This document shows, one piece after another, positions 140 through 38,273 of a stretch of 38,273 nucleotides of DNA. Below the pieces are notes generated by a model. The model saw only the letters and a program-made list of their open reading frames with translations. It did not search any database and was not told the origin of the DNA. The DNA comes from a virus. The position numbers and the translations under genes were made by a program. Location of the stretch: positions 1 to 38,273 of the IMG/VR virus record IMGVR_UViG_3300046777_000408. One strand, 5' to 3'. Numbering within the stretch: the first letter of the stretch is position 1; every line of letters starts with the position of its first letter.

Positions 140-1048
140 GAAGCGGCGTCCGGTTCTATGTCGGGACATAACGCTACGACGCTCCTACTCGGGAACCCAA
201 CGCGGAACAGCGGTCTATTTTACGATACCCACAACCGTCTTAAGGGAGAGTGGAAGACATTCCACGTTAGTTGCGTTGACAGCCCGCGCGTCTCAGAGGC
301 TTTCGTTAGGGAAATGCAACTACGCTATGGCGAAGACAGTCCGGCATATCACGTACGTGTTTTGGGCAACTTCCCGCCGCGAGAGGAAGATACTGTAATC
401 CCGGTTGAACTTATTGACGGCGCGATGAACCGCGAGATTAAAATCGCCAAGCAGACGCGAAGTGTGTGGGGGTTGGACGTGGCCCGCATGGGTTCGGACA
501 GCAGCGCGTTGGCTAAGCGTCGAGGGCCAGTTGTCGAAGAGATACAGACTTGGAAAGGTCTGGACCTGATGCAGCTTACCGGCGCAGTGGTCGCCGAGTA
601 TGAGGCGTTGCCGCCATCAGAGCAGCCGACGGAGATACTTGTAGACAGCATCGGGCTTGGTGCTGGCGTGTTGGACCGTCTGCGTGAATTAGGTCTACCA
701 GCACGAGGGATCAACGTCGCCGAAAGTCCGGCGCTAAAAGGAACCTACGCCAACCTTCGTGCAGAGTTGTGGTTCAAGTGCAAAGCGTGGCTGGCGAACC
801 GTGATGTGAAGATACCGAAGGATGAGCAGCTATTCGCCGAATTGGCGTCGCCGCGTTACTCGTTCACCTCGTCCGGCAAGATGCAAGTCGAGAGCAAGGA
901 GAGCATGAAGAAACGCGGCCTTCCTTCGCCGGACAAAGCGGATGCTCTTTGCCTGTGTCTGGCGACAGACCTGTCAACTATAATGCACGGTTATTCAATG
1001 GCGAATAAGACGGGGCCATTGCGTCGGAATATACGCGGAGTTGTTTGA
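2..1048 (+). CDS. terL: Terminase large subunit, C-terminal part (continues from the other end)
   Basis: This is the C-terminal part of the packaging ATPase-nuclease; the N-terminus is at 37773-38134 and the joined gene encodes 469 residues, a usual TerL length. Only the Walker B half of the ATPase lies here: the LLVADEASG stretch supplies acidic residues at about 157-158 of the joined protein. The RNase H-like headful nuclease follows, with WGLDVARMG (Asp about 280), an ILVDSIGLG strand and a late SPDKADAL motif, in the order expected of TerL. The first codon here is an internal leucine, not a start. The stop codon TGA lies inside the -35 box of the promoter that follows. TerS is not adjacent: it is encoded on the opposite strand at 34664-35200. 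Confidence 0.95.
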   Translation: MKAAPSEAFISARTSRAETPEALQGIHADNVLLVADEASGIPESVFEAASGSMSGHNATTLLLGNPTRNSGLFYDTHNRLKGEWKTFHVSCVDSPRVSEAFVREMQLRYGEDSPAYHVRVLGNFPPREEDTVIPVELIDGAMNREIKIAKQTRSVWGLDVARMGSDSSALAKRRGPVVEEIQTWKGLDLMQLTGAVVAEYEALPPSEQPTEILVDSIGLGAGVLDRLRELGLPARGINVAESPALKGTYANLRAELWFKCKAWLANRDVKIPKDEQLFAELASPRYSFTSSGKMQVESKESMKKRGLPSPDKADALCLCLATDLSTIMHGYSMANKTGPLRRNIRGVV

Positions 1049-1072
1049 CAGATTTAGAAGATGTGTTATATT
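1045..1072 (+). promoter_or_regulatory. Strong sigma-70-type promoter directly after terL
   Basis: A perfect -35 box TTGACA (1045-1050) is followed after 16 bases by TATATT (1067-1072), a 5/6 match to the -10 consensus. The -35 box overlaps the terL stop codon. A start site about 7 bases downstream would be G1079, which is exactly the first base of the 1079-1112 hairpin. It is the best promoter match I found in the window, and it serves a non-coding stretch, not a gene. Confidence 0.72.
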
Positions 1073-1078
1073 TATTTT

Positions 1079-1206
1079 GTTGCACAAGTTTTCCTCTCCC
1101 TCCTTGTGTAACGTACCTGAACTTGGGGCAGCGAGGCTTATAGCCGGTAATAGCGCCGTGTAGTGCTGGACATCACTACCCACCGTCGCCGCCGCCCCAT
1201 CTTTTT
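1079..1206 (+). ncRNA. Candidate stand-alone structured RNA, about 128 nt
   Basis: The RNA would start at G1079 from the promoter at 1045-1072 and end at a T-run (1202-1206). A 5' hairpin pairs 1079-1088 with 1103-1112 (10 bp, one mismatch, 14-nt loop). A closing stem pairs 1125-1133 with 1190-1198 (GGGGC-A-GCG with CGC-C-GCCCC, one A.C mismatch). Inside it are two hairpins: 1135-1138 with 1142-1145, and GTAGTG 1160-1165 with CACTAC 1174-1179. The closing stem is followed by ATC and five T, as in an intrinsic terminator. No plausible reading frame of the + strand covers it. The 74-nt stem-closed part is not a tRNA, because it has no T-loop sequence and no proper D arm. Function is unknown; a packaging-associated or regulatory RNA, or simply a long leader of the next gene, are alternatives. 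Confidence 0.5.
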
Positions 1207-1214
1207 ACTTAAAC

Positions 1215-1244
1215 TTTACATAACCCCATACTTTGGTGTATACT
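1215..1244 (+). promoter_or_regulatory. Probable promoter of the endonuclease VII-like gene
   Basis: TTTACA (1215-1220) and TATACT (1239-1244) are separated by 18 bases, each a 5/6 match to the sigma-70 consensus. It lies 27 bases before the ATG of the endonuclease gene and after the T-run that ends the candidate RNA, so the endonuclease is probably transcribed on its own. Confidence 0.5.
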
Positions 1245-1252
1245 TATCCACA
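1244..1252 (+). promoter_or_regulatory. Consensus DnaA-box match
   Basis: TTATCCACA is an exact match to the bacterial DnaA-box consensus and overlaps the -10 end and start region of the preceding promoter. It could place the gene under host DnaA control or belong to an origin. A single 9-base match has a fair chance of being accidental in a genome of this size, and I saw no cluster of further boxes beside it. Confidence 0.25.
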
Positions 1253-1270
1253 GGGATGGGGGTTTCCTGC

Positions 1271-1687
1271 ATGAAGACTTGTAGAGGATGCGGCGAAGTA
1301 AAGCCGCTAGACGAATTCGATACAGGTCGCGCTAAGTGCAAGCCATGCCGCCGTGCAATACAGCGGGCCTATCGTAATTCACGTCCCGGCTATCACCGCA
1401 ACCACAACTTAAAACAACGCTATGGCATCACGCCGGAAGAGTATGAAAGCATACTCGCCGCGCAGAATTTCATGTGCGCGATTTGTGAGGTAGAAATATC
1501 TCACGCTTTAGAGTATAAGACTGGCAGGACTGTCGCGGTTGACCACAATCATGAAACGGGTGAAATTCGCGGCATACTTTGTTCTAAGTGTAATTTGGTT
1601 CTCGGCCACGCAAGAGAAAGCACCGATATTCTTTATAAGAGCATCGTTTACTTGAGCGAACGTGGGACTTATACACCGAAGAGGTAG
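1271..1687 (+). CDS. Endonuclease VII-like HNH nuclease
   Basis: The 138-residue protein resembles the recombination endonuclease VII family, which cleaves branched DNA and, in free-standing form, is common in phages. An N-terminal zinc ribbon has CRGCG and CKPC pairs. The core has a MCAIC pair, the VDHNHETGEIRG signature with the metal-binding and catalytic His/Asp residues, and an LCSKCN pair: the usual four-cysteine clamp around a beta-beta-alpha-metal HNH fold. I start at ATG 1271 because upstream in-frame codons run back into the promoter and RNA, and a G-rich stretch precedes this ATG. It may resolve junctions before packaging, next to TerL, or be a mobile homing-type nuclease. Confidence 0.85.
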   Translation: MKTCRGCGEVKPLDEFDTGRAKCKPCRRAIQRAYRNSRPGYHRNHNLKQRYGITPEEYESILAAQNFMCAICEVEISHALEYKTGRTVAVDHNHETGEIRGILCSKCNLVLGHARESTDILYKSIVYLSERGTYTPKR

Positions 1688-2572: not shown

Positions 2573-4927
2573 ATGGCATATCGCAATAATCGCAAGCCGA
2601 CTAAGGCCGAGATGGCTAAGAACCAGTCGATGTATCAGGACACCGGCGTTCCCAATGCCAACTCCGAAAGCGACGACGGCGAGGCCATGTCCTCCGACGA
2701 ATTGGAGTATGAACTTCCCGACGACACTGAAGTATCTATCGAAGAGCCGGAGATGGAAGAAGATACCGAGACTACGCCGGTATCTGAAGAAGAACTTGAG
2801 AACATTGTCCGCGCTGAGATCGACGACGCGCAGGAATATATCGACGACGTAATCAGCCCGGAGCGTGCGCTTGCGGGCCAGTATTATAAGGGCGAACCCT
2901 TCGGCAACGAAGAAGAAGGCCGCTCTCAGGTCGTGTCGATGGATGTGCGCGATACGGTGCAGGCCATCATGCCGTCGATCATGCGCGTCTTCTTCTCGGC
3001 CAGCAATGTCGTCGAGTTTGCGCCGAACGGCCCGGAAGACGTAGCCAACGCCGAGCAGGCGACGGATTATGTCAACTACTGCTTGACGCGTGACAACAAC
3101 CTTTTCACCGAAGCCTATGCCTCGTTCAAGGACGCGCTGATCCGCAAGAACGGTATCATGAAAGTTTGGTGGGACGTAGAGAAGAACGTCGATACCTACT
3201 ACATGACCGGCCTCGATGAAGCCGCGTTCTCCGTTCTTCAGTCCGACCCCGATACGGAAGTCAAGGACGTTGAAATCCGCATGAGCGAAACCACCGTCAT
3301 GACGCCGATGGGCGAAATGACGCAGGCCGCGCCCGCGATTTACGATTGCACGATTGTCCGCAAGACGGAGAAGGGCCGCCTTCGTGTCCAGTCCGTCCCG
3401 CCGGAAGAGTTCCTGATTGACCGCCGCGCCCGCAACATCGAAGACGCAGAGTTTGTAGCCCACCGTCGCTACGTCACCGTCTCCGATCTTGTGAAGATGG
3501 GCTACGAACTGGACGAAGTTGAAGACCTCGGCTTCGAAACACTCGACGACTTCGAAGGCAACCAAGAAGCGTTTGACCGTAACCCGCAGGCATTTGTCCA
3601 GATCACGGGCCGTACCGACGTATCCAGCCGCAAAGTCCTTTACATCGAAGGTTATCTGCGCGTTGACATGGACGGCGACGGTATCGCGGAACTCTGCCGC
3701 GTTTGTGTCGCTGGGACCGCTAATAAGTTGCTGTCGTGGGAAAGCTGCGACTTCATCCCGTTCGTAGATTTCTGCCCCGATCCCGAGCCGCACACCTTCT
3801 TCGGTATGTCGGTCGCCGATGTGACGATGGACATTCAGCTTATCAAGTCGAATATCCTGCGTAACACGCTCGACAGCTTGGCGCAGGCGATCCACCCGCG
3901 CACGGGTGTTGTCGAAGGCCAAGTCAACATCGAAGACGTGATGAACACCGAAGTCGGTGGCATCATCCGTATGCGCGCACCGGGTATGGTGCAGCCGTTT
4001 GCGATGCCGTTCGTTGGCAGCCAAGCGTTCCCGATGCTGCAATACATGGATGAAATCCGTGAGAACCGCACGGGTATCTCCAAGGCAGCAGCGGGCCTCG
4101 ACGCCAACGCGCTCCAGTCTTCGACACAGGCCGCCGTTGCCGCGACGATTACTGCCGCGCAGCAGCACATCGAACTGATCTGCCGCATCTTCGCTGAAAC
4201 GGGTATGAAGAACCTGTTCAAGAAGTCGCTGCAACTCATCACCAAGAACCAAGACGCGCCGCGCATGGTGCGTCTGCGCAACAAGTTCGTGCCGATTGAT
4301 CCCCGCGTTTGGGACAGCACAATGGACGTTGTTGTCAACGTGGCGCTTGGCTCGGGCAGCAATGAAGAGAAGATGGCTTTCCTCGGCTCCATTGCCGCCA
4401 AGCAAGAAGCCCTCATGGCGCAGGGCGCACCGATTGTAGATATTCAGCAATACTACAACACGCTGTCGCAGATGTTGGCGCTGGCTGGCTATAAAGACCC
4501 GTCGTCGTTCTTCATGGACCCGGCCATGCTGCCGCCTCCTGCTCCGCCCGCACCGCCACCTCCGACGCCGGAGCAGATGTTGGCGCAAGTCCAGATGGAA
4601 GCGATCCGCGCTGACATTCAGAAGAAGGCAGCCGAACTTGAGTTGCAGCGCGAAGAGATGCTGCGCAAGGATGACCGTGAGCGCGATAAGCTAGACGCCG
4701 ACCTTATGATTAAGGCCGCCGAGATTGAAGCTAAGTATGGCGCGCAAGTCAACACGGCCAACATCGAAGCGTTGATGCAGCGTGACCGCGAACTGGTTCG
4801 GCAGACCGGTGAACTTGAGCGCGCTGTGATGCAGGCTCAAATGCAAGCTGCGCAGTCGGCGACTGCTGCCCCCGCCCCGGCTCCTGAAATGCCGATGGAT
4901 CAAATGCCCCCTGAAGGAATGATGTAA
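2573..4927 (+). CDS. Portal protein, P22 gp1-like
   Basis: At 784 residues this matches the large portals of P22-like podoviruses, which form the dodecameric DNA gate at the head vertex and dock TerL. Visible features are an acidic N-terminus (residues about 25-75), the conserved core with VPPEEFLIDRRAR, VAHRRYVT and DPEPHTFFGMSVADV, and a middle region ending QAAVAATITAAQQHIEL that fits the crown/stem helices. A proline-rich hinge (about 645-660) leads to a long C-terminal coiled coil rich in Glu/Lys/Gln, as expected for a barrel that extends into the head. Start ATG 2573 follows the previous gene by 3 bases; the stop overlaps the next ATG (TAATG). A long antisense frame lies opposite this gene but is a composition shadow. 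Confidence 0.92.
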   Translation: MAYRNNRKPTKAEMAKNQSMYQDTGVPNANSESDDGEAMSSDELEYELPDDTEVSIEEPEMEEDTETTPVSEEELENIVRAEIDDAQEYIDDVISPERALAGQYYKGEPFGNEEEGRSQVVSMDVRDTVQAIMPSIMRVFFSASNVVEFAPNGPEDVANAEQATDYVNYCLTRDNNLFTEAYASFKDALIRKNGIMKVWWDVEKNVDTYYMTGLDEAAFSVLQSDPDTEVKDVEIRMSETTVMTPMGEMTQAAPAIYDCTIVRKTEKGRLRVQSVPPEEFLIDRRARNIEDAEFVAHRRYVTVSDLVKMGYELDEVEDLGFETLDDFEGNQEAFDRNPQAFVQITGRTDVSSRKVLYIEGYLRVDMDGDGIAELCRVCVAGTANKLLSWESCDFIPFVDFCPDPEPHTFFGMSVADVTMDIQLIKSNILRNTLDSLAQAIHPRTGVVEGQVNIEDVMNTEVGGIIRMRAPGMVQPFAMPFVGSQAFPMLQYMDEIRENRTGISKAAAGLDANALQSSTQAAVAATITAAQQHIELICRIFAETGMKNLFKKSLQLITKNQDAPRMVRLRNKFVPIDPRVWDSTMDVVVNVALGSGSNEEKMAFLGSIAAKQEALMAQGAPIVDIQQYYNTLSQMLALAGYKDPSSFFMDPAMLPPPAPPAPPPPTPEQMLAQVQMEAIRADIQKKAAELELQREEMLRKDDRERDKLDADLMIKAAEIEAKYGAQVNTANIEALMQRDRELVRQTGELERAVMQAQMQAAQSATAAPAPAPEMPMDQMPPEGMM

Positions 4928-21670: not shown

Positions 21671-22195
21671 ATGAAATTCATGGGCATTGACCCCGGCGCG
21701 TTTGGGGCCGTCGCTATTCTTGATAAGGATAGCCGAGAACTTATCGTCATCGACATGCCTACCGTTAAGGTCAAGCGCGGGCCGCGCGTCGTCAATCAGG
21801 TAGACGCGCACGCGCTGGCCGATGCTTTACGGTTACATGTAACCGGCGAAACAAAAGCCCTTATCGAGAAAGTCCACGCCATGCCGGGCCAAGGTGTGTC
21901 GTCGATGTTCAGCTTTGGCCGAGCCGCAGGTATTATTGAGGGTGTATTGGCTGGGTTCTCTGTTCCTTTTGAGTTGATCCCGCCCGCAACTTGGACTAAA
22001 TCTATGCGGACTTTCGGAGGGAAGGACGGTAGTCGGCAGCGGGCGCAAGAGTTGTTCCCGGATTACGCTCATCTCTTCGCAAGAAAGAAAGATGACGGCA
22101 GGGCCGAGGCTGCGCTTCTGGCTTGTTACGCCGCAGAGAGGGAAGATGAACCATCTATTCGATTACCAAAAGGTCGGCGCAGACTTTCTCTGTGA
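21671..22195 (+). CDS. RuvC-like Holliday junction resolvase
   Basis: The 174-residue protein has a RuvC/RNase H fold. The N-terminal MGIDPGAFGAVAILD strand gives the first catalytic Asp, the ALIEKVHAMPGQGVSSMFSFGRAAG segment gives the Glu and the conserved loop, and KKDDGRAEAALLACYA supplies the C-terminal acidic pair. It resolves branched replication and recombination intermediates ahead of packaging. A second ATG at 21680 is an alternative start. The last 50 bases overlap the SNF2-type helicase gene in another frame. Confidence 0.9.
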   Translation: MKFMGIDPGAFGAVAILDKDSRELIVIDMPTVKVKRGPRVVNQVDAHALADALRLHVTGETKALIEKVHAMPGQGVSSMFSFGRAAGIIEGVLAGFSVPFELIPPATWTKSMRTFGGKDGSRQRAQELFPDYAHLFARKKDDGRAEAALLACYAAEREDEPSIRLPKGRRRLSL

Positions 22196-23429
22196 CCACC
22201 CGGCTGCGTTCCTCGCAGACGAACAGGGCCTTGGCAAAACACTTCAAGTTATTGCGGCCTGTGATAAACTTGGCCTGACAAAAGTCGTGGTGGTCTGTCC
22301 GGCCATCGCTAAGATCAACTGGCGTCGTGAGTTTGAGAAGTGGGGTACTGTAGAGCGTGAGATAAAAGTCTTCAGTTACGACAAGATCGTGCAGTCAAAG
22401 GATGTTCGCAATGAAATCGCCAAGTTTGAGCCGGATGTTCTGGTTTTGGATGAAGCGCATTATCTCAAGAATAGGACTGCTAAGCGTACAAAGTATTTAT
22501 ATGGTCAGTTCTGTCGCGGCGATGGCCTCGTTCGTTTTGCTGATCGTGTGTGGCTTCTTAGTGGCACTCCCATTCCTAACAATGTCAGCGATTTCTGGAC
22601 GCACCTTAAAGCTATTTGGCAGTACCCTCTAAACTTCACGGACTATACGCTCTATTTCTGCAAGACTTGGAACGGCCAGTTTGGGCTACAAGTTCTCGGC
22701 AACAAGGCTGAGCGGATGGCAGAGTTCAAGACGATCCTGAAGTCGGTGATGTTGCGCCGCAAGTCGGAAGTCGTGCTGAAAGATTTGCCGCCGATCTGGT
22801 GGCAAGATACACCCATTGAGGTGGAAAACTGGAGCGACACCAAACACATCGAAGACCCACGCGAACAGGAAGCGGTCAACGCTATCCTTGCCCACGCGCT
22901 TACCGAGCAAGACTTGTCCGAGAAGATTGAGGGCATCGCCCCTCACATCGCGTCATTACGTCGGCTAACCGGGGTAGCCAAATCTCGACCGATTGCCACC
23001 CAAATAGCTGGCGAATTGCAAGATGACGCTTATGAGAAAATCGTCATCTTCGCCTACCACACCGACGCGATCCAAAACTTGTACAATACACTGAAGGATT
23101 ACAACCCGGTGGTGGTGGCTGGCGGTATGCCGACCGCAGAGCGTCAAGCGTCAATTGACACTTTCCAGTCCGACCCCAAGTGCCGCGTATTCATCGGCCA
23201 GATCACGGCCTGTTCGACGGCGATCACGTTGACGGCTGCAAATCAGGTGGCGTTTGTGGAGATGGATTGGGTTCCGGCAACGAACGCACAGGCGGCCAAG
23301 CGTTGCCACCGTATCGGCCAGACTAAGCCCGTCATTGTGCGGACCTTCGGCCTTGTCAATTCTGTTGATGAGATCGTAGCTAAGACTTTAGCTAAGAAGG
23401 CGCGGATGATTTCCGAGGCTTTAGACTAA
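22146..23429 (+). CDS. SNF2-type DNA helicase / translocase
   Basis: From ATG 22146 the protein has 427 residues and the motifs of SF2 SNF2-like ATPases: LADEQGLGKTLQVIA (motif I, residues about 21-35), VLDEAHYLKNR (DEAH, about 101), LLSGTPIPN (motif III, about 138) and AKRCHRIGQTKPVIVRTFG (motif VI, about 380). Such phage enzymes remodel replication forks or move along double-stranded DNA. I prefer this start to ATG 22092 because GAGGGAAG lies just before it and it opens with the Q-like FDYQKVGADFL region. It meets the leftward HNH gene tail to tail, with a 9-base overlap. Confidence 0.9.
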   Translation: MNHLFDYQKVGADFLCDHPAAFLADEQGLGKTLQVIAACDKLGLTKVVVVCPAIAKINWRREFEKWGTVEREIKVFSYDKIVQSKDVRNEIAKFEPDVLVLDEAHYLKNRTAKRTKYLYGQFCRGDGLVRFADRVWLLSGTPIPNNVSDFWTHLKAIWQYPLNFTDYTLYFCKTWNGQFGLQVLGNKAERMAEFKTILKSVMLRRKSEVVLKDLPPIWWQDTPIEVENWSDTKHIEDPREQEAVNAILAHALTEQDLSEKIEGIAPHIASLRRLTGVAKSRPIATQIAGELQDDAYEKIVIFAYHTDAIQNLYNTLKDYNPVVVAGGMPTAERQASIDTFQSDPKCRVFIGQITACSTAITLTAANQVAFVEMDWVPATNAQAAKRCHRIGQTKPVIVRTFGLVNSVDEIVAKTLAKKARMISEALD

Positions 23430-23921
23430 GCGCCTAAACTCACCGTGATATTGTCGGCTGGCTTTGCAATACGCAGCGAAGGCTAGTTGTACAGTGGGAT
23501 ACCGGCCAAGGTGGATCACCTTGTTATTACGGTAAATCTTGGCCTGCCATTTATTGCGGTCTTTGTTGTACGTCACGCCCTTAAAGCCGGACGTATTGTT
23601 GCCGCTCATGCCGCGATTGCGGTTGTTCTCCGCCCGCGTTGCTTCGCGTAGATTGACTAAGCGATTGTCGGTGCGCTTACCGTTCACATGGTCGAGAAGT
23701 TCTGTCGGCCATTTGCCGTACATCATAAGCCAAGCAACGCGGTGTACGCGATACTGCCTGCCCATAAGCACAACTACACGGTAGCCTTGCGCGTTTGTAG
23801 TTAGGATTTCACGCCCGCTTGGGCGTCCGGTGCGCGGCCAAATCTTCCAGCGCATCACGCCAGTGGCTGGGTCATAGTCTAGATATTTGCGTGCATCATT
23901 CGCCGTAATTAAACTTTCCAT
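23421..23921 (-). CDS. HNH endonuclease with AP2-like DNA-binding end
   Basis: From ATG 23921 the protein has 166 residues. It has a beta-rich lead (DYDPATGVMRWKIWPRTGRPSG), an HNH_3-type core (YRVHRVAWLMMYGKWP, LDHVNGKRTDNRLVNLREATRAENNRN) and a C-terminal AP2-like part (SGFKGVTYNKDRNKWQAKI, GRYPTVQLAFAAY). This is the architecture of free-standing homing endonucleases in phages. GGAGG lies 8 bases before ATG 23921, while the longer start at 23978 would run through the terminator hairpin. It sits as a separate unit behind the terminator of the ssDNA-binding protein gene, which fits a mobile insertion. Confidence 0.88.
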   Translation of the reverse strand: MESLITANDARKYLDYDPATGVMRWKIWPRTGRPSGREILTTNAQGYRVVVLMGRQYRVHRVAWLMMYGKWPTELLDHVNGKRTDNRLVNLREATRAENNRNRGMSGNNTSGFKGVTYNKDRNKWQAKIYRNNKVIHLGRYPTVQLAFAAYCKASRQYHGEFRRLV

Positions 23922-23931
23922 GACAGCCTCC

Positions 23932-23971
23932 AAAAAGGAGGGCTGGGCGACTTCCAAACTCCCAGCCCTCC
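23932..23971 (-). terminator. Intrinsic terminator after the ssDNA-binding protein gene
   Basis: On the minus strand CCCAGCCCTCC and its complement (23961-23971 with 23937-23947, 11 perfect pairs, 13-nt loop) is followed immediately by five T (23936-23932). It begins 8 bases after the stop of the ssDNA-binding protein. The T-run runs directly into the GGAGG site of the HNH gene, so the HNH message is either readthrough or separately started. Confidence 0.82.
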
Positions 23972-23978
23972 CCTTCAC

Positions 23979-28137: not shown

Positions 28138-28284
28138 AGTCTCCCTCGGTGTCGTCGGTTTCACGTTGTGTTTCACGCTGGGTGGCACAGATCGTATAGC
28201 CTCGTCAACTAAAAAAAGTGCTTGCGTTAAAATATCAAGTTGTGCCAGACGATGCCGACCAACAAAAAACGAGTAGGGAGACTA
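28138..28284. promoter_or_regulatory. Divergent regulatory region between the two replication operons
   Basis: This 147-base stretch separates the leftward polymerase operon from the rightward HTH/primase operon and must carry both promoters. It contains TTTCACG twice, at 28159-28165 and 28171-28177 (12 bases apart, about one helical turn), which may be an operator pair, and an A/T-rich block (28211-28238). On the minus strand a TTGATA (from 28237 leftward) could be a -35 box but no good -10 follows at the right distance. Promoters are inferred from gene layout rather than from clear boxes. Confidence 0.45.
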
Positions 28285-30013: not shown

Positions 30014-30206
30014 AGTAGAGTTAGACTTCATACCAGTATTCGTGATCGGATTTGATGAAGAGTTCGAACGCGGCGTAATAATGTTGATGCCAGCGCATGA
30101 GTTGATGGCGGAGATGGACGAAGACTTTCAGGTATTCGCCATTGATGCCGCCATTGATATGCTCATGCAGCGGCGGGATAAGTTGGAGAAGAGGGAGTTA
30201 CACTAA
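29988..30206 (+). CDS. Small acidic protein, 72 aa
   Basis: The ATG at 29988 follows a G-rich site (GGGGGGAA) and gives 72 residues with a beta part (VELDFIPVFVIGFDEEFERGVIMLM) and helices (HELMAEMDEDFQVF; AIDMLMQRRDKLEKRE). The strong negative charge in the middle recalls DNA-mimic proteins, but the fold is unknown. The stop overlaps the next start (TAATG). Confidence 0.6.
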   Translation: MKVKMDKDEVELDFIPVFVIGFDEEFERGVIMLMPAHELMAEMDEDFQVFAIDAAIDMLMQRRDKLEKRELH

Positions 30207-30499
30207 TGTTTTGGACAAAACCCAAGCCGTTAACCGAGAGAGAACAACTACAGGAAGAGGCCGTTAGTTTGGCTTGCGATTTGTTCTCAACAGGAAACCT
30301 CTACGGCAATGATGAAACTGGATGGTCTGACAACAAAACAATCGCAGAGGCGAAAAAGGTTGCTTATATACCGTCAAAAACATTCCCGAGGCTGTGGGTT
30401 GGTGGGTGCGTTTTTGAACTTTCGTCTAGTCAATCACAGCGCATTCATAACGTAATAGCGAAACGGGTTTTTGCTACGCTGAAGCAGGGAGACATTTGA
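30206..30499 (+). CDS. Small hypothetical protein, 97 aa
   Basis: A 97-residue protein, beginning MFWTKPKPLTEREQLQEEAVSLACDLFSTG, with a helical first half and a beta second half (FPRLWVGGCVFELSSSQ). Base use is somewhat more A/T-rich than neighbours. It overlaps the previous stop by one base and ends 1 base before the primase gene. No family is recognised. Confidence 0.6.
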   Translation: MFWTKPKPLTEREQLQEEAVSLACDLFSTGNLYGNDETGWSDNKTIAEAKKVAYIPSKTFPRLWVGGCVFELSSSQSQRIHNVIAKRVFATLKQGDI

Positions 30500-33796: not shown

Positions 33797-33821
33797 GGGG
33801 CTTTCGCCCCTCTTTTTTTTT
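33795..33821 (+). terminator. Intrinsic terminator of the rightward early operon
   Basis: GAGGGGC (33795-33801) pairs with GCCCCTC (33806-33812) around a 4-nt loop, followed by nine T (33813-33821). The stop codon of the DUF3310 gene overlaps the first stem bases. It separates this operon from the converging HNH gene whose stop codon is inside the T-run. Confidence 0.92.
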
Positions 33822-34320
33822 ATAGGCTTCCCGGTGCTTCATAGCCCGTGGCATTTTTGAAAGCGGCACGAGCCTCAGCTTCGGTATCAAAGCGGCCAAG
33901 GAAAACGCGCTCGCCCTTGACGATAGCGTTGGCTTCGAACAGCGTCACCCCCATCTTGTGGAATGTCACGCGGCCCACACCATGCGCCGGGACTTGATTG
34001 TCCTTTCGGGGAACGGGCTTGCGTGTGACTGGATCGCGTGTGCGCAGAGGCGCACGGACTTCTAAATTGTCCCAGCGGTTATCAAGTTTGTTGCCATTCA
34101 CATGGCGGATAGGGTGCTGAGGCCATTCGCCTGTCATGATGTTCCAGATGATCCGGTGGGCTAGAGTTTGGCTTCCAGCAAATAAAACGGATATGCCGCT
34201 GGCGGTGGTCTTACCGGCTCGGCGTCCGGCGGGGAGAGATCCTTTTGGCTTACGATACGTCAACGCTCCAGTGTCGGGGTCGTAGTCGAAAGTTTCTTTT
34301 AAAGTTTCATGGATTGTCAC
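33820..34320 (-). CDS. Second HNH endonuclease with AP2-like end
   Basis: Starting at GTG 34320 (GGAGG seven bases upstream), the protein has 166 residues, the same length as the HNH protein at 23421-23921. It has a DYDPDTGALTYRKPKGS lead, an HNH_3-type core (AHRIIWNIMTGEWPQ, IRHVNGNKLDNRWDNLEV) and an AP2-like end (VGRVTFHKMGVTLFEANAIV, GRFDTEAEARAAF). One difference is Arg in place of Leu-Asp before His (IRHVNG against LDHVNG). An ATG at 34407 is in frame, but it would read through the G-rich repeats. It lies next to the large inverted repeat and may be a mobile gene. Confidence 0.86.
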   Translation of the reverse strand: MTIHETLKETFDYDPDTGALTYRKPKGSLPAGRRAGKTTASGISVLFAGSQTLAHRIIWNIMTGEWPQHPIRHVNGNKLDNRWDNLEVRAPLRTRDPVTRKPVPRKDNQVPAHGVGRVTFHKMGVTLFEANAIVKGERVFLGRFDTEAEARAAFKNATGYEAPGSL

Positions 34321-34345
34321 GAGTGTTCCTCCTTCGGGCCGGGTT

Positions 34346-34627
34346 GGGCCGGGTTTAGAAAGTTCGGGCCGGGTTTGGCTTGGCGAAAAACCACGCAAAA
34401 CTGCCATCCGTGCCGGGTTGTACCGGGAGTGCCGGGATTTCCTACTTTTGCCTCCTATACGTAGGGTATATATACCTATACTATCTAGTTATACAGGTGT
34501 AAATACCCAAAACGTATAGTGCGAAGTCAGAAAAACCCGGCACTCCCGGTACAACCCGGCACGGATGGCAGAAAACAGCCATTTTTAGAAAGGCCAAACC
34601 CGGCACGGATTTTTGCAAACCCGGCCC
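34346..34627. repeat. Large inverted repeat beside terS
   Basis: The inner arms, 34401-34436 and 34536-34571, are perfect 36-bp inverted copies around a 99-bp spacer. The match continues imperfectly outward, giving arms of about 91-92 bp (34346-34436 and 34536-34627). The arms are built from related units: GGGCCGGGTT at 34336, 34346 and 34366 on the + strand and its inverse AAACCCGGC(ACGGAT) at 34596-34610 and 34637-34651. The spacer is A/T-rich and contains a perfect 12-bp palindrome GGTATATATACC. It covers the 343-base gap between the terS stop (34664) and the HNH start (34320) and carries no gene. A pac-like, origin-like or cruciform element are all possible. Confidence 0.88.
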
Positions 34628-37074: not shown

Positions 37075-37105
37075 GCGATACAGCATCAAAAACGGGAGAA
37101 ATACG

Positions 37106-37786
37106 TTGGCTGTTTATGGTTACACCCGCGTCTCGACGGAAGATCAAATCGAGAATACGTCCCTTGAGGATCAGGCACGCCAAATAAAAGGCATCGCCCT
37201 CACGCATAATCTGGAACTAGACCATATCTACGAAGAGCGCGGCGTGTCTGGCGGCGTTCCATTGCTGCGCCGAGAAGAAGGCTGCAAGCTGGCGTTCCTC
37301 CGGCCCGGCGATACAGTCATAATCTCCAAGCTGGACCGTATGTTCAGGGACGCACGGGACGCACTAAACGTGATTGCCGATTGGGATGCTGCGAACATTA
37401 ACCTCATCATCAACGGCTATGGCAATGTGACCGACAAGGCCAATCCCAATGGAAGGTTCATGCTTGAGATCATGGCCGTGTTCAGTGGTGAGGAGCGCCG
37501 ACGCATCCGTGAGCGCGTCACTGCTGGCAAGCGCGCCAAGAAATCGCAAGGCGGCTACATTGGTGGTAAAGTTCCGTTTGGATTTAAGAAGTCGGGCGCG
37601 GGCCGGGCGGCCAAGCTGAAGCCCGATCCAAATGCGCAGGACGCAATGATTACAATGAAAGCCGCACGCGTTAAAGGCCATAGCTACCGCGATATTGCTA
37701 TTATCGTAGCAAAGCGTCATGGTATCGAAGTAAGTCACCAGACGGTGGCACGTGTAATCCGGGGAGATAAGAATGACCAAATCTGA
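37106..37786 (+). CDS. Small serine recombinase (resolvase/invertase family)
   Basis: The 226-residue protein has a resolvase catalytic domain: YTRVSTEDQ with the nucleophile Ser at residue 10 and Arg at 8, SLEDQARQI, an ISKLDRMFRDARD arm and GRFMLEIMAVFSGEERRRIRERV, the E helix. A linker leads to a C-terminal HTH (SYRDIAIIVAKRHGIEVSHQTVARVI). Its length is that of resolvases and invertases, not of large integrases. The start is TTG 37106 after GGGAGAAA; no ATG fits. It overlaps the terL start by 14 bases. Resolving genome multimers, inverting DNA or regulating entry into the late program are possible. Confidence 0.9.
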   Translation: MAVYGYTRVSTEDQIENTSLEDQARQIKGIALTHNLELDHIYEERGVSGGVPLLRREEGCKLAFLRPGDTVIISKLDRMFRDARDALNVIADWDAANINLIINGYGNVTDKANPNGRFMLEIMAVFSGEERRRIRERVTAGKRAKKSQGGYIGGKVPFGFKKSGAGRAAKLKPDPNAQDAMITMKAARVKGHSYRDIAIIVAKRHGIEVSHQTVARVIRGDKNDQI

Positions 37787-38273
37787 GCCGAACTTCTTTT
37801 TGGAGTTCCTGAAGAAGTATAAGGACGATCCGGTTGGTTTCGTTCGGGACATTCTTCGCACCAAACCCGATCCGTGGCAGGTGAAGTTCTTAGAGGCGAT
37901 CAGCGAAGGCAACCGCCGTATCTCCGTTCGCTCCGGCCACGGTGTAGGGAAATCGACAGCCGCGTCGTGGGCCATGCTTCATTACTTCCTCACCCGCTAC
38001 CCGGTGAAGGTGGTTGTGACTGCACCAACATCCGCACAGTTGTTCGACGCGATGTTTGCGGAACTGAAGCGATGGGTGAATGAACTGCCGGAAGTCTTGA
38101 AAGTTCTGATCGAAGTCAAGGCAGACCGCATTGAATTGAAAGCAGCGCCAAGTGAAGCCTTTATCTCCGCGAGAACGTCGCGTGCCGAAACGCCAGAAGC
38201 ACTCCAAGGTATCCACGCCGATAACGTATTGCTTGTGGCCGACGAAGCCTCAGGTATTCCAGAAAGCGTCTTT
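37773..38273 (+). CDS. terL: Terminase large subunit, N-terminal part (runs off the window)
   Basis: The frame from ATG 37773 is open to the last base and joins the segment at 2-1048 through the terminal repeat to form 469 residues. It starts inside the recombinase gene (14-base overlap). The N-terminal helical part has DPWQVKFLEAIS. The Walker A motif is SGHGVGKST (residues 54-62). VVVTAPTSAQL (about 80-90) fits the motif Ia strand. The window end falls at the Walker B and coupling segment, which repeats at 1-139. TerL pumps DNA through the portal and cuts it in a headful manner. Confidence 0.95.
   Translation, partial: MTKSEPNFFLEFLKKYKDDPVGFVRDILRTKPDPWQVKFLEAISEGNRRISVRSGHGVGKSTAASWAMLHYFLTRYPVKVVVTAPTSAQLFDAMFAELKRWVNELPEVLKVLIEVKADRIELKAAPSEAFISARTSRAETPEALQGIHADNVLLVADEASGIPESVF
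38135..38273. repeat. Terminal direct repeat, right copy (assembly overlap)
   Basis: This copy matches bases 1-139 at 138 of 139 positions; it has G at 38147 where the left copy has A at 13. It should be counted once when the genome is treated as circular. Confidence 0.92.

Follow-up and report, generated by a model that had tools for sequence, protein, structure and literature searches.

The closest described counterparts of the RNA reported here are the bacterial small RNAs (sRNAs) of the alpha-r14 family, whose founder is NfeR1 of Sinorhizobium meliloti. Members of this family have conserved pyrimidine loops that act as anti-Shine-Dalgarno sequences, and their stems vary freely (PMC10746234, PMC3927594). 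Three hairpins are present, each of which displays an identical CCUCCUCCC motif in its loop. For NfeR1, the block of translation at start regions has been tested, and this provides a precedent for the mechanism considered below (PMC10746234). Phages also produce sRNAs of known function, including VpdS, PreS, OOP, sar, and c4; among the phage sRNAs described in a review, none reads a whole class of early genes via ribosome-binding sites (PMC12197685).

Phage sRNAs and anti-Shine-Dalgarno sRNAs are each already known. In open-access papers, no report was found of a phage RNA that recognizes the early gene class of its own phage via ribosome-binding sites. The order in which early and late phage genes are expressed is thought to be set mainly by transcription.

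RESULTS

The phage record and the cassette downstream from terL

The sequence analyzed here (the window) is the whole of record IMGVR_UViG_3300046777_000408, which is 38,273 bases long and comes from an uncultured phage. Its terL gene is split by the record ends, with the ATPase domain open at the right (37773–38273) and the C-terminal part at the left (1–1048). Because terL is divided between both ends, the record probably represents a complete circular permutation. The window carries genes for an SU10-type capsid and portal, for a serine recombinase (TTG 37106), and for a DNA polymerase that corresponds to Pfam DNA_pol_A, and its terL matches the general terminase large subunit family phrog_2. 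Sinorhizobium phage phiM5 is among the nearest isolate relatives (55% identity for terL and 55% for the capsid). Two HNH endonuclease genes akin to phrog_99 (23421–23978 and 33820–34407), which most relatives lack, are probably mobile free-standing endonucleases. The polA match extends over ∼2760 versus 1905 bases in L362, L367, L369–L371, and L377, and the open reading frame (ORF) of L377 has 921 versus 653 amino acids. This in-frame insertion of ∼285 amino acids looks like an intein.

A sigma-70-type promoter, TTGACA-N16-TATATT (1045–1072, plus strand), overlaps the terL stop codon (TGA, 1046–1048). Its −35 element occupies positions 1045–1050 and its −10 element, which is preceded by TG, positions 1067–1072; the sequence matches the consensus at 11/12 positions, a quality that a simple promoter scan encounters ∼3 times per 5 kb by chance. 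This promoter is kept in relatives: among 56 distinct sequences downstream from terL, TTGACA is present in 54 and TATATT at a spacing of 16 in 44. Host RNA polymerase would start near position 1079 and stop at the T-run that ends at 1206, and the predicted product is an sRNA of ∼128 nt (1079–1206, plus strand).

The predicted RNA begins with hairpin P0 (1079–1112; stem 1079–1088/1103–1112), whose all-pyrimidine loop UUUUCCUCUCCCUC (1089–1102) is the proposed anti-Shine-Dalgarno seed. Complementarity to targets is extended by the neighboring CUU (1103–1105). Farther downstream is a three-way-junction domain (1125–1198) closed by P1 (1125–1129/1194–1198 plus 1131–1133/1190–1192). It contains the P2 hairpin GGCU-UAU-AGCC (1135–1145; stem 1135–1138/1142–1145), the junction J2/3 with the sequence GGUAAUA (1146–1152, as defined by the alignment and RNAalifold), and a variable P3 arm (1153–1189; P3a 1153–1155/1187–1189 and P3b 1160–1165/1174–1179). 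The 3′ strand of P1 and a T-run (1202–1206) together make up an intrinsic terminator (1194–1206). A second promoter-like site, TTTACA-N18-TATACT (1215–1244, 10/12), precedes the endonuclease VII gene, which starts 65 nt beyond the terminator. All of these elements are on the plus strand. The original prediction, made from the window sequence alone, had proposed the promoter over the terL stop, the hairpin, the closed domain with two inner hairpins, the T-run, and the second promoter, and each was found again at its stated position.

Conservation and fold of the RNA

The minimum free energy of the segment 1079–1206 is −42.2, compared with −32.4 ± 3.7 for shuffled sequences (z = −2.6). This folding energy is unusual, yet it is weak evidence by itself, and conservation is decisive. 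A terL-based scan gave 80 viral contigs, 75 of which carry the complete RNA after the terL stop. In the remaining five, the RNA is cut at the contig end (two contigs), the contig stops at terL (one), or a different element is present (two). Two DNA pattern scans that were independent of terL located the RNA solely after terL, and the other hits that were opened proved to be unrelated sequence. Exactly one copy of the RNA was found in each of twelve window-clade records with a covariance model.

The alignment (A2) comprises 59 distinct RNAs. For the structure named above, 98.2% of the cells are paired in these homologs, versus 94.7% in shuffles and 35%–63% when the partner is slid by one to three columns. 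The covariation score is 0.176, versus 0.113 in shuffles and at most 0.095 when slid. Unprompted, RNAalifold returned the same stems and three-way junction from the 59 homologs, with two-sided changes at 11 pairs. In P0, two-sided changes occur at 8/11 pairs (one flanking pair counted), and 99.7% of the cells are paired. MAFFT places one P1 base wrongly in the window, L006, L161, and L019, and P1 pairs in these sequences once the base is shifted. The P3 arm is cleanly missing in five contigs (L058, L061, L064, L067, and L146) and duplicated in L147. As judged from these natural variants, P3 is dispensable.

The segment UAAUAGCG (1148–1155) is invariant across the 59 homologs, and P1, P2, and P3 are joined by an invariant UAAUA. 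The invariance of UAAUAGCG exceeds the needs of base-pairing or termination, and this junction may serve in protein binding or in a tertiary contact. Mimicry of the 16S 530-loop by GGUAAUA was considered and rejected, since the likeness is only 7 bases long and is too short to weigh.

For the window and four relatives, no match was found among 4227 Rfam families at the gathering threshold, a set that does not necessarily include alpha-r14. With E values of up to 10, window positions 950–1350 gave only a chance snoRNA match. A search with a covariance model (R1) of 289 genomes from a single class, the one that includes the Methylobacterium locus L275, gave no match at E 0.001 and is uninformative for cellular copies. 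The kept promoter, the covarying stems, the terminator, the lack of an Rfam match, and the flanking by two promoters strongly support the view that the cassette encodes a stand-alone, undescribed structured phage RNA, as had been supposed. Like a trans-acting phage sRNA, it appears to have its own promoter and intrinsic terminator, with sequence features that are kept in relatives.

The pyrimidine loop and the scaffolds of sister phages

The 5′ loop is purely pyrimidine in 56/59 homologs and is 13–19 nt long with the core CUCUCCCUC; the letters of its stem drift. At this position, sister phages (terL ∼90% identical) have a different scaffold, and pyrimidine or CUCC loops are exposed again. In the sister RNAs of L084, L252, and L273, as many as three hairpins carry CUCC or CUC in their loops. 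The GGUAAUA domain is absent from the sister phages, which retain the CUCC loops. Some sister cassettes are weakly detected by the window-clade model (L273 with E 7e-4; L263, L264, and L266 with ∼0.02). No strong-stem pyrimidine-loop hairpin was found in the isolates RHph_N3_2, Venkman, and HTVC106P or in record MW202496, and the one found in phiM5 is unrelated.

Other loops of this kind were observed. In L274 (terL 69%; the contig is binned in an Opitutae MAG, and the binning may be wrong), the loop of the post-terL terminator hairpin is UUUUCCCUCCUCCCC. In the more distant phage L203 (terL 51%), a hairpin with a GGUCUCCUCCUCGCC loop lies past the terL stop at 3595. CUCC is also present in the P3 loop of 34/56 homologs (A2 columns 100–141), and the P3 loop of the window is without it; CUCC-bearing P3 loops are a possible second seed.

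Complementarity to early-gene start regions

Several early genes of the window have predicted target sites at their starts. The start region of the DNA polymerase A gene (ATG 28137, minus strand) includes GAGGGAGA (28140–28147), which is perfectly complementary to the window's own loop over 8 nt. On the plus strand, AGGGAGA precedes both the gene for the HTH regulator phrog_323 (28275–28281; ATG 28285) and the primase-helicase gene (30486–30492; ATG 30501), GAGGGAG precedes a gene for 97 amino acids at 30206 (30191–30197), and GGGAGA precedes the serine recombinase gene (37094–37099; TTG 37106). The helicase gene (ATG 22146, plus strand) is preceded by GAGAGGGA (22136–22143), which is complementary to the clade consensus loop over 8 nt and to the window's own loop over 6. 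For the HTH regulator, AGGGAGA is retained though the proteins are just 47%–53% identical. Among the 19 perfect matches of at least 7 nt in the window, six are located no more than 25 bases upstream of a start, and all six are in the early module. Loop duplex energies calculated on the window's own gene starts separate the replication and regulatory genes from the structural genes.

Calculated over all ORFs, loop energy alone did not reach significance in most relatives, since spurious short ORFs are numerous and the signal is blurred by a general richness in purines. The test was therefore based on conserved genes and exact matches; the genes came from eight genomes that carry the RNA and were recognized by their homology to the window. 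A perfect loop complement of at least 7 nt is present in 38/87 conserved early start regions versus 0/102 structural ones, where early and late were assigned by gene function and start codons were picked by a rule that rewards Shine-Dalgarno strength. Permutation of the gene labels gives p = 3e-4, and the Fisher p would be 6e-16 if the regions were independent, which they are not; the start regions share descent, so these p values are optimistic. The signal is carried by only 7–11 early genes, and several others (e.g., SSB, TerS-like, and g80) have no loop match. In the clade, GGGAG or AGGGA is found in 44/87 early start regions and in 3/102 late ones. Elsewhere, early start regions contain these sequences in 1/15 cases in the sister phages and 1/10 in the control (phiM5 plus MW202496).

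Since purine-rich sites will pair with any pyrimidine loop, all 512 pyrimidine 9-mers were ranked by early-minus-late matches in a larger contig set than that of the eight-genome test. In the window clade, the loop 9-mers rank 2, 4, and 7 with 6-nt matches, and TCTCCCTCT ranks 1 with 7-nt matches, whereas the 9-mers of sister loops rank 237–389. For the sister clade, ranks 1 and 3 (6 nt) fall to TCCTCTCCT and TCTCCTCTC, both from its own loops, and the 9-mers of the window clade rank 13–102. All loop 9-mers perform poorly in the outgroups, with window-clade ones below rank 280 (6 and 7 nt) and sister ones below 170.

Loop shuffles gave a similar picture. On their own targets, p is 0.008 for the clade (7 nt) and 0.004–0.04 for the sister clade, whereas crossed clade and sister pairs mostly give p = 0.3–0.75 and outgroups give p = 0.7–0.9. 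Some 6-nt tests in the clade miss p = 0.05, and the shorter loop of the window itself gives p values of 0.02 at 6 nt and 0.30 at 7 nt. A clade loop variant that also holds a sister-type seed gives p = 0.06–0.10 on sister targets. The upstream regions of early genes are generally rich in purines, and shuffled pyrimidine loops favor these genes too, to a lesser degree; the specificity margin is moderate. In these comparisons, the sister clade differs from the window clade in both seed and targets, which change jointly, and the outgroup phages show neither. The RNA also shares with trans-acting phage sRNAs an unpaired seed that is conserved and that is complementary to targets located elsewhere in the genome. 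For the 5′ loop, the favored interpretation is an anti-Shine-Dalgarno-like seed that is matched to the phage's own early genes.

DISCUSSION

A model for control of early genes at translation

We consider it fairly probable that this RNA acts in trans as an sRNA and, by occupying the ribosome-binding sites of the phage's own early genes, represses them. The 5′ hairpin would expose the pyrimidine loop with its CUCUCCCUC core, and the loop would pair with GGGAG-type Shine-Dalgarno sequences of the early module, where the putative targets are DNA polymerase A, the primase-helicase, the helicase, the HTH regulator, the recombinase, and small genes. Pairing in the cell would block ribosome binding on these mRNAs, and structural genes would be spared, their start regions being without a GGGAG-type sequence. 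The 3′ three-way junction may protect the RNA, and it would also carry the terminator. Given its host-type promoter, the RNA could be made early and limit or delay expression, serve as a shut-off at a late stage, or keep genes quiet in a carrier state. The likely effect would be a shut-off of early genes as the phage turns to late functions. Alternatively, early genes might be quieted in a carrier or lysogenic state, given that a serine recombinase is encoded. The invariant GGUAAUA junction has no role in this anti-Shine-Dalgarno model, which counts against it.

A broader proposal is that the RNA is a master translational switch, in which early genes bear a GGGAG-type address that structural genes do not, the RNA reads this address, and seed and addresses change together while the scaffold is replaced. 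This version is offered tentatively, as one that could well be correct but that we stop short of calling probable.

Other explanations for the conserved cassette

The loop is a general anti-Shine-Dalgarno sequence, and NfeR1-type RNAs regulate cell genes. The RNA might thus act mainly against host mRNAs and cause shut-off or a metabolic change, with the match to phage early genes being a side effect of strong purine-rich sites. That shuffled loops also favor early over late genes, if less strongly, is consistent with this explanation. However, host targeting would not predict that, for the early genes of the phage itself, the loop core ranks near the top of the 512 pyrimidine 9-mers, that the seed moves with its targets in the sister clade, or that structural genes are without a 7-nt match, and we judge it unlikely. 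Quite improbable, in our estimation, is a decoy or protein-binding RNA whose loop or GGUAAUA junction binds Rho, a cold-shock protein, an Hfq-like protein, or a phage protein, with pairing being incidental. The invariance of UAAUAGCG in 59 sequences, beyond terminator needs, fits such a function, and YC-rich single strands are known Rho ligands. Sister phages nevertheless keep CUCC loops where the GGUAAUA domain is missing, and the exact order of pyrimidines fits the early genes and differs between clades. The original prediction had treated a regulatory RNA and a host-directed decoy as equally likely; the regulatory RNA is now favored, as its seed fits the phage's own early genes, and the equal weighting no longer holds.

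The location of the cassette suggests two further possibilities. The next gene downstream is that for endonuclease VII, which in several relatives is preceded by GGGAG, as might be expected of a cis-acting leader or attenuator that yields no separate RNA. This is very improbable given the T-run terminator and second promoter-like site in between and the 65 nt that separate the terminator from the gene start. Every real copy found also sits directly after terL, and a packaging RNA working with the neighboring terminase had been entertained by analogy to the phi29 pRNA. That analogy finds no support: there is no Rfam match, pRNA included; the terminase belongs to the general family and not to the phi29 type; and sister phages with a ∼90% identical terL swap the scaffold and keep the pyrimidine loops. 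We give a packaging role almost no credence.

If the anti-Shine-Dalgarno model is correct, then a phage group that is common among IMG/VR metagenome contigs separates early from structural genes at the level of translation. Early genes would be given their own type of ribosome-binding site, with one RNA reading that type, and anti-Shine-Dalgarno sRNAs, known from bacterial metabolism, would be linked to phage development. The linked changes in seed and targets make this proposal directly testable.

Comparison with known systems

The phage RNA resembles the phi29 pRNA in being a phage RNA of similar length that is here encoded near packaging functions, but neither sequence nor structure matches, and the terminase is of a different type. 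It has more in common with VpdS, PreS, OOP, sar, and c4, which are phage-made, base-pairing RNAs that in some cases act on mRNAs of their own phage. Among these, OOP, sar, and c4 are each antisense to a single region, and the target of PreS is host dnaN (PMC12197685).

The strongest parallels are with NfeR1, which is likewise ∼120 nt in length, exposes pyrimidine anti-Shine-Dalgarno loops, and is conserved in its seed rather than its scaffold. The sister-clade phage RNAs also share its arrangement of three hairpins, here with CUC or CUCC loops. The alpha-r14 hallmark of three CCUCCUCCC loops is absent from the window RNA, which has the one pyrimidine loop UUUUCCUCUCCCUC and no CCUCCUCCC. By analogy, the best explanation is that the window RNA would work like NfeR1 yet is not a member of alpha-r14. 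Whereas NfeR1 is chromosomal, with three CCUCCUCCC loops and targets in cell metabolism, the phage RNA combines one CUCUCCCUC loop with a three-way junction and is located after terL, with early genes of the phage itself as its predicted targets.
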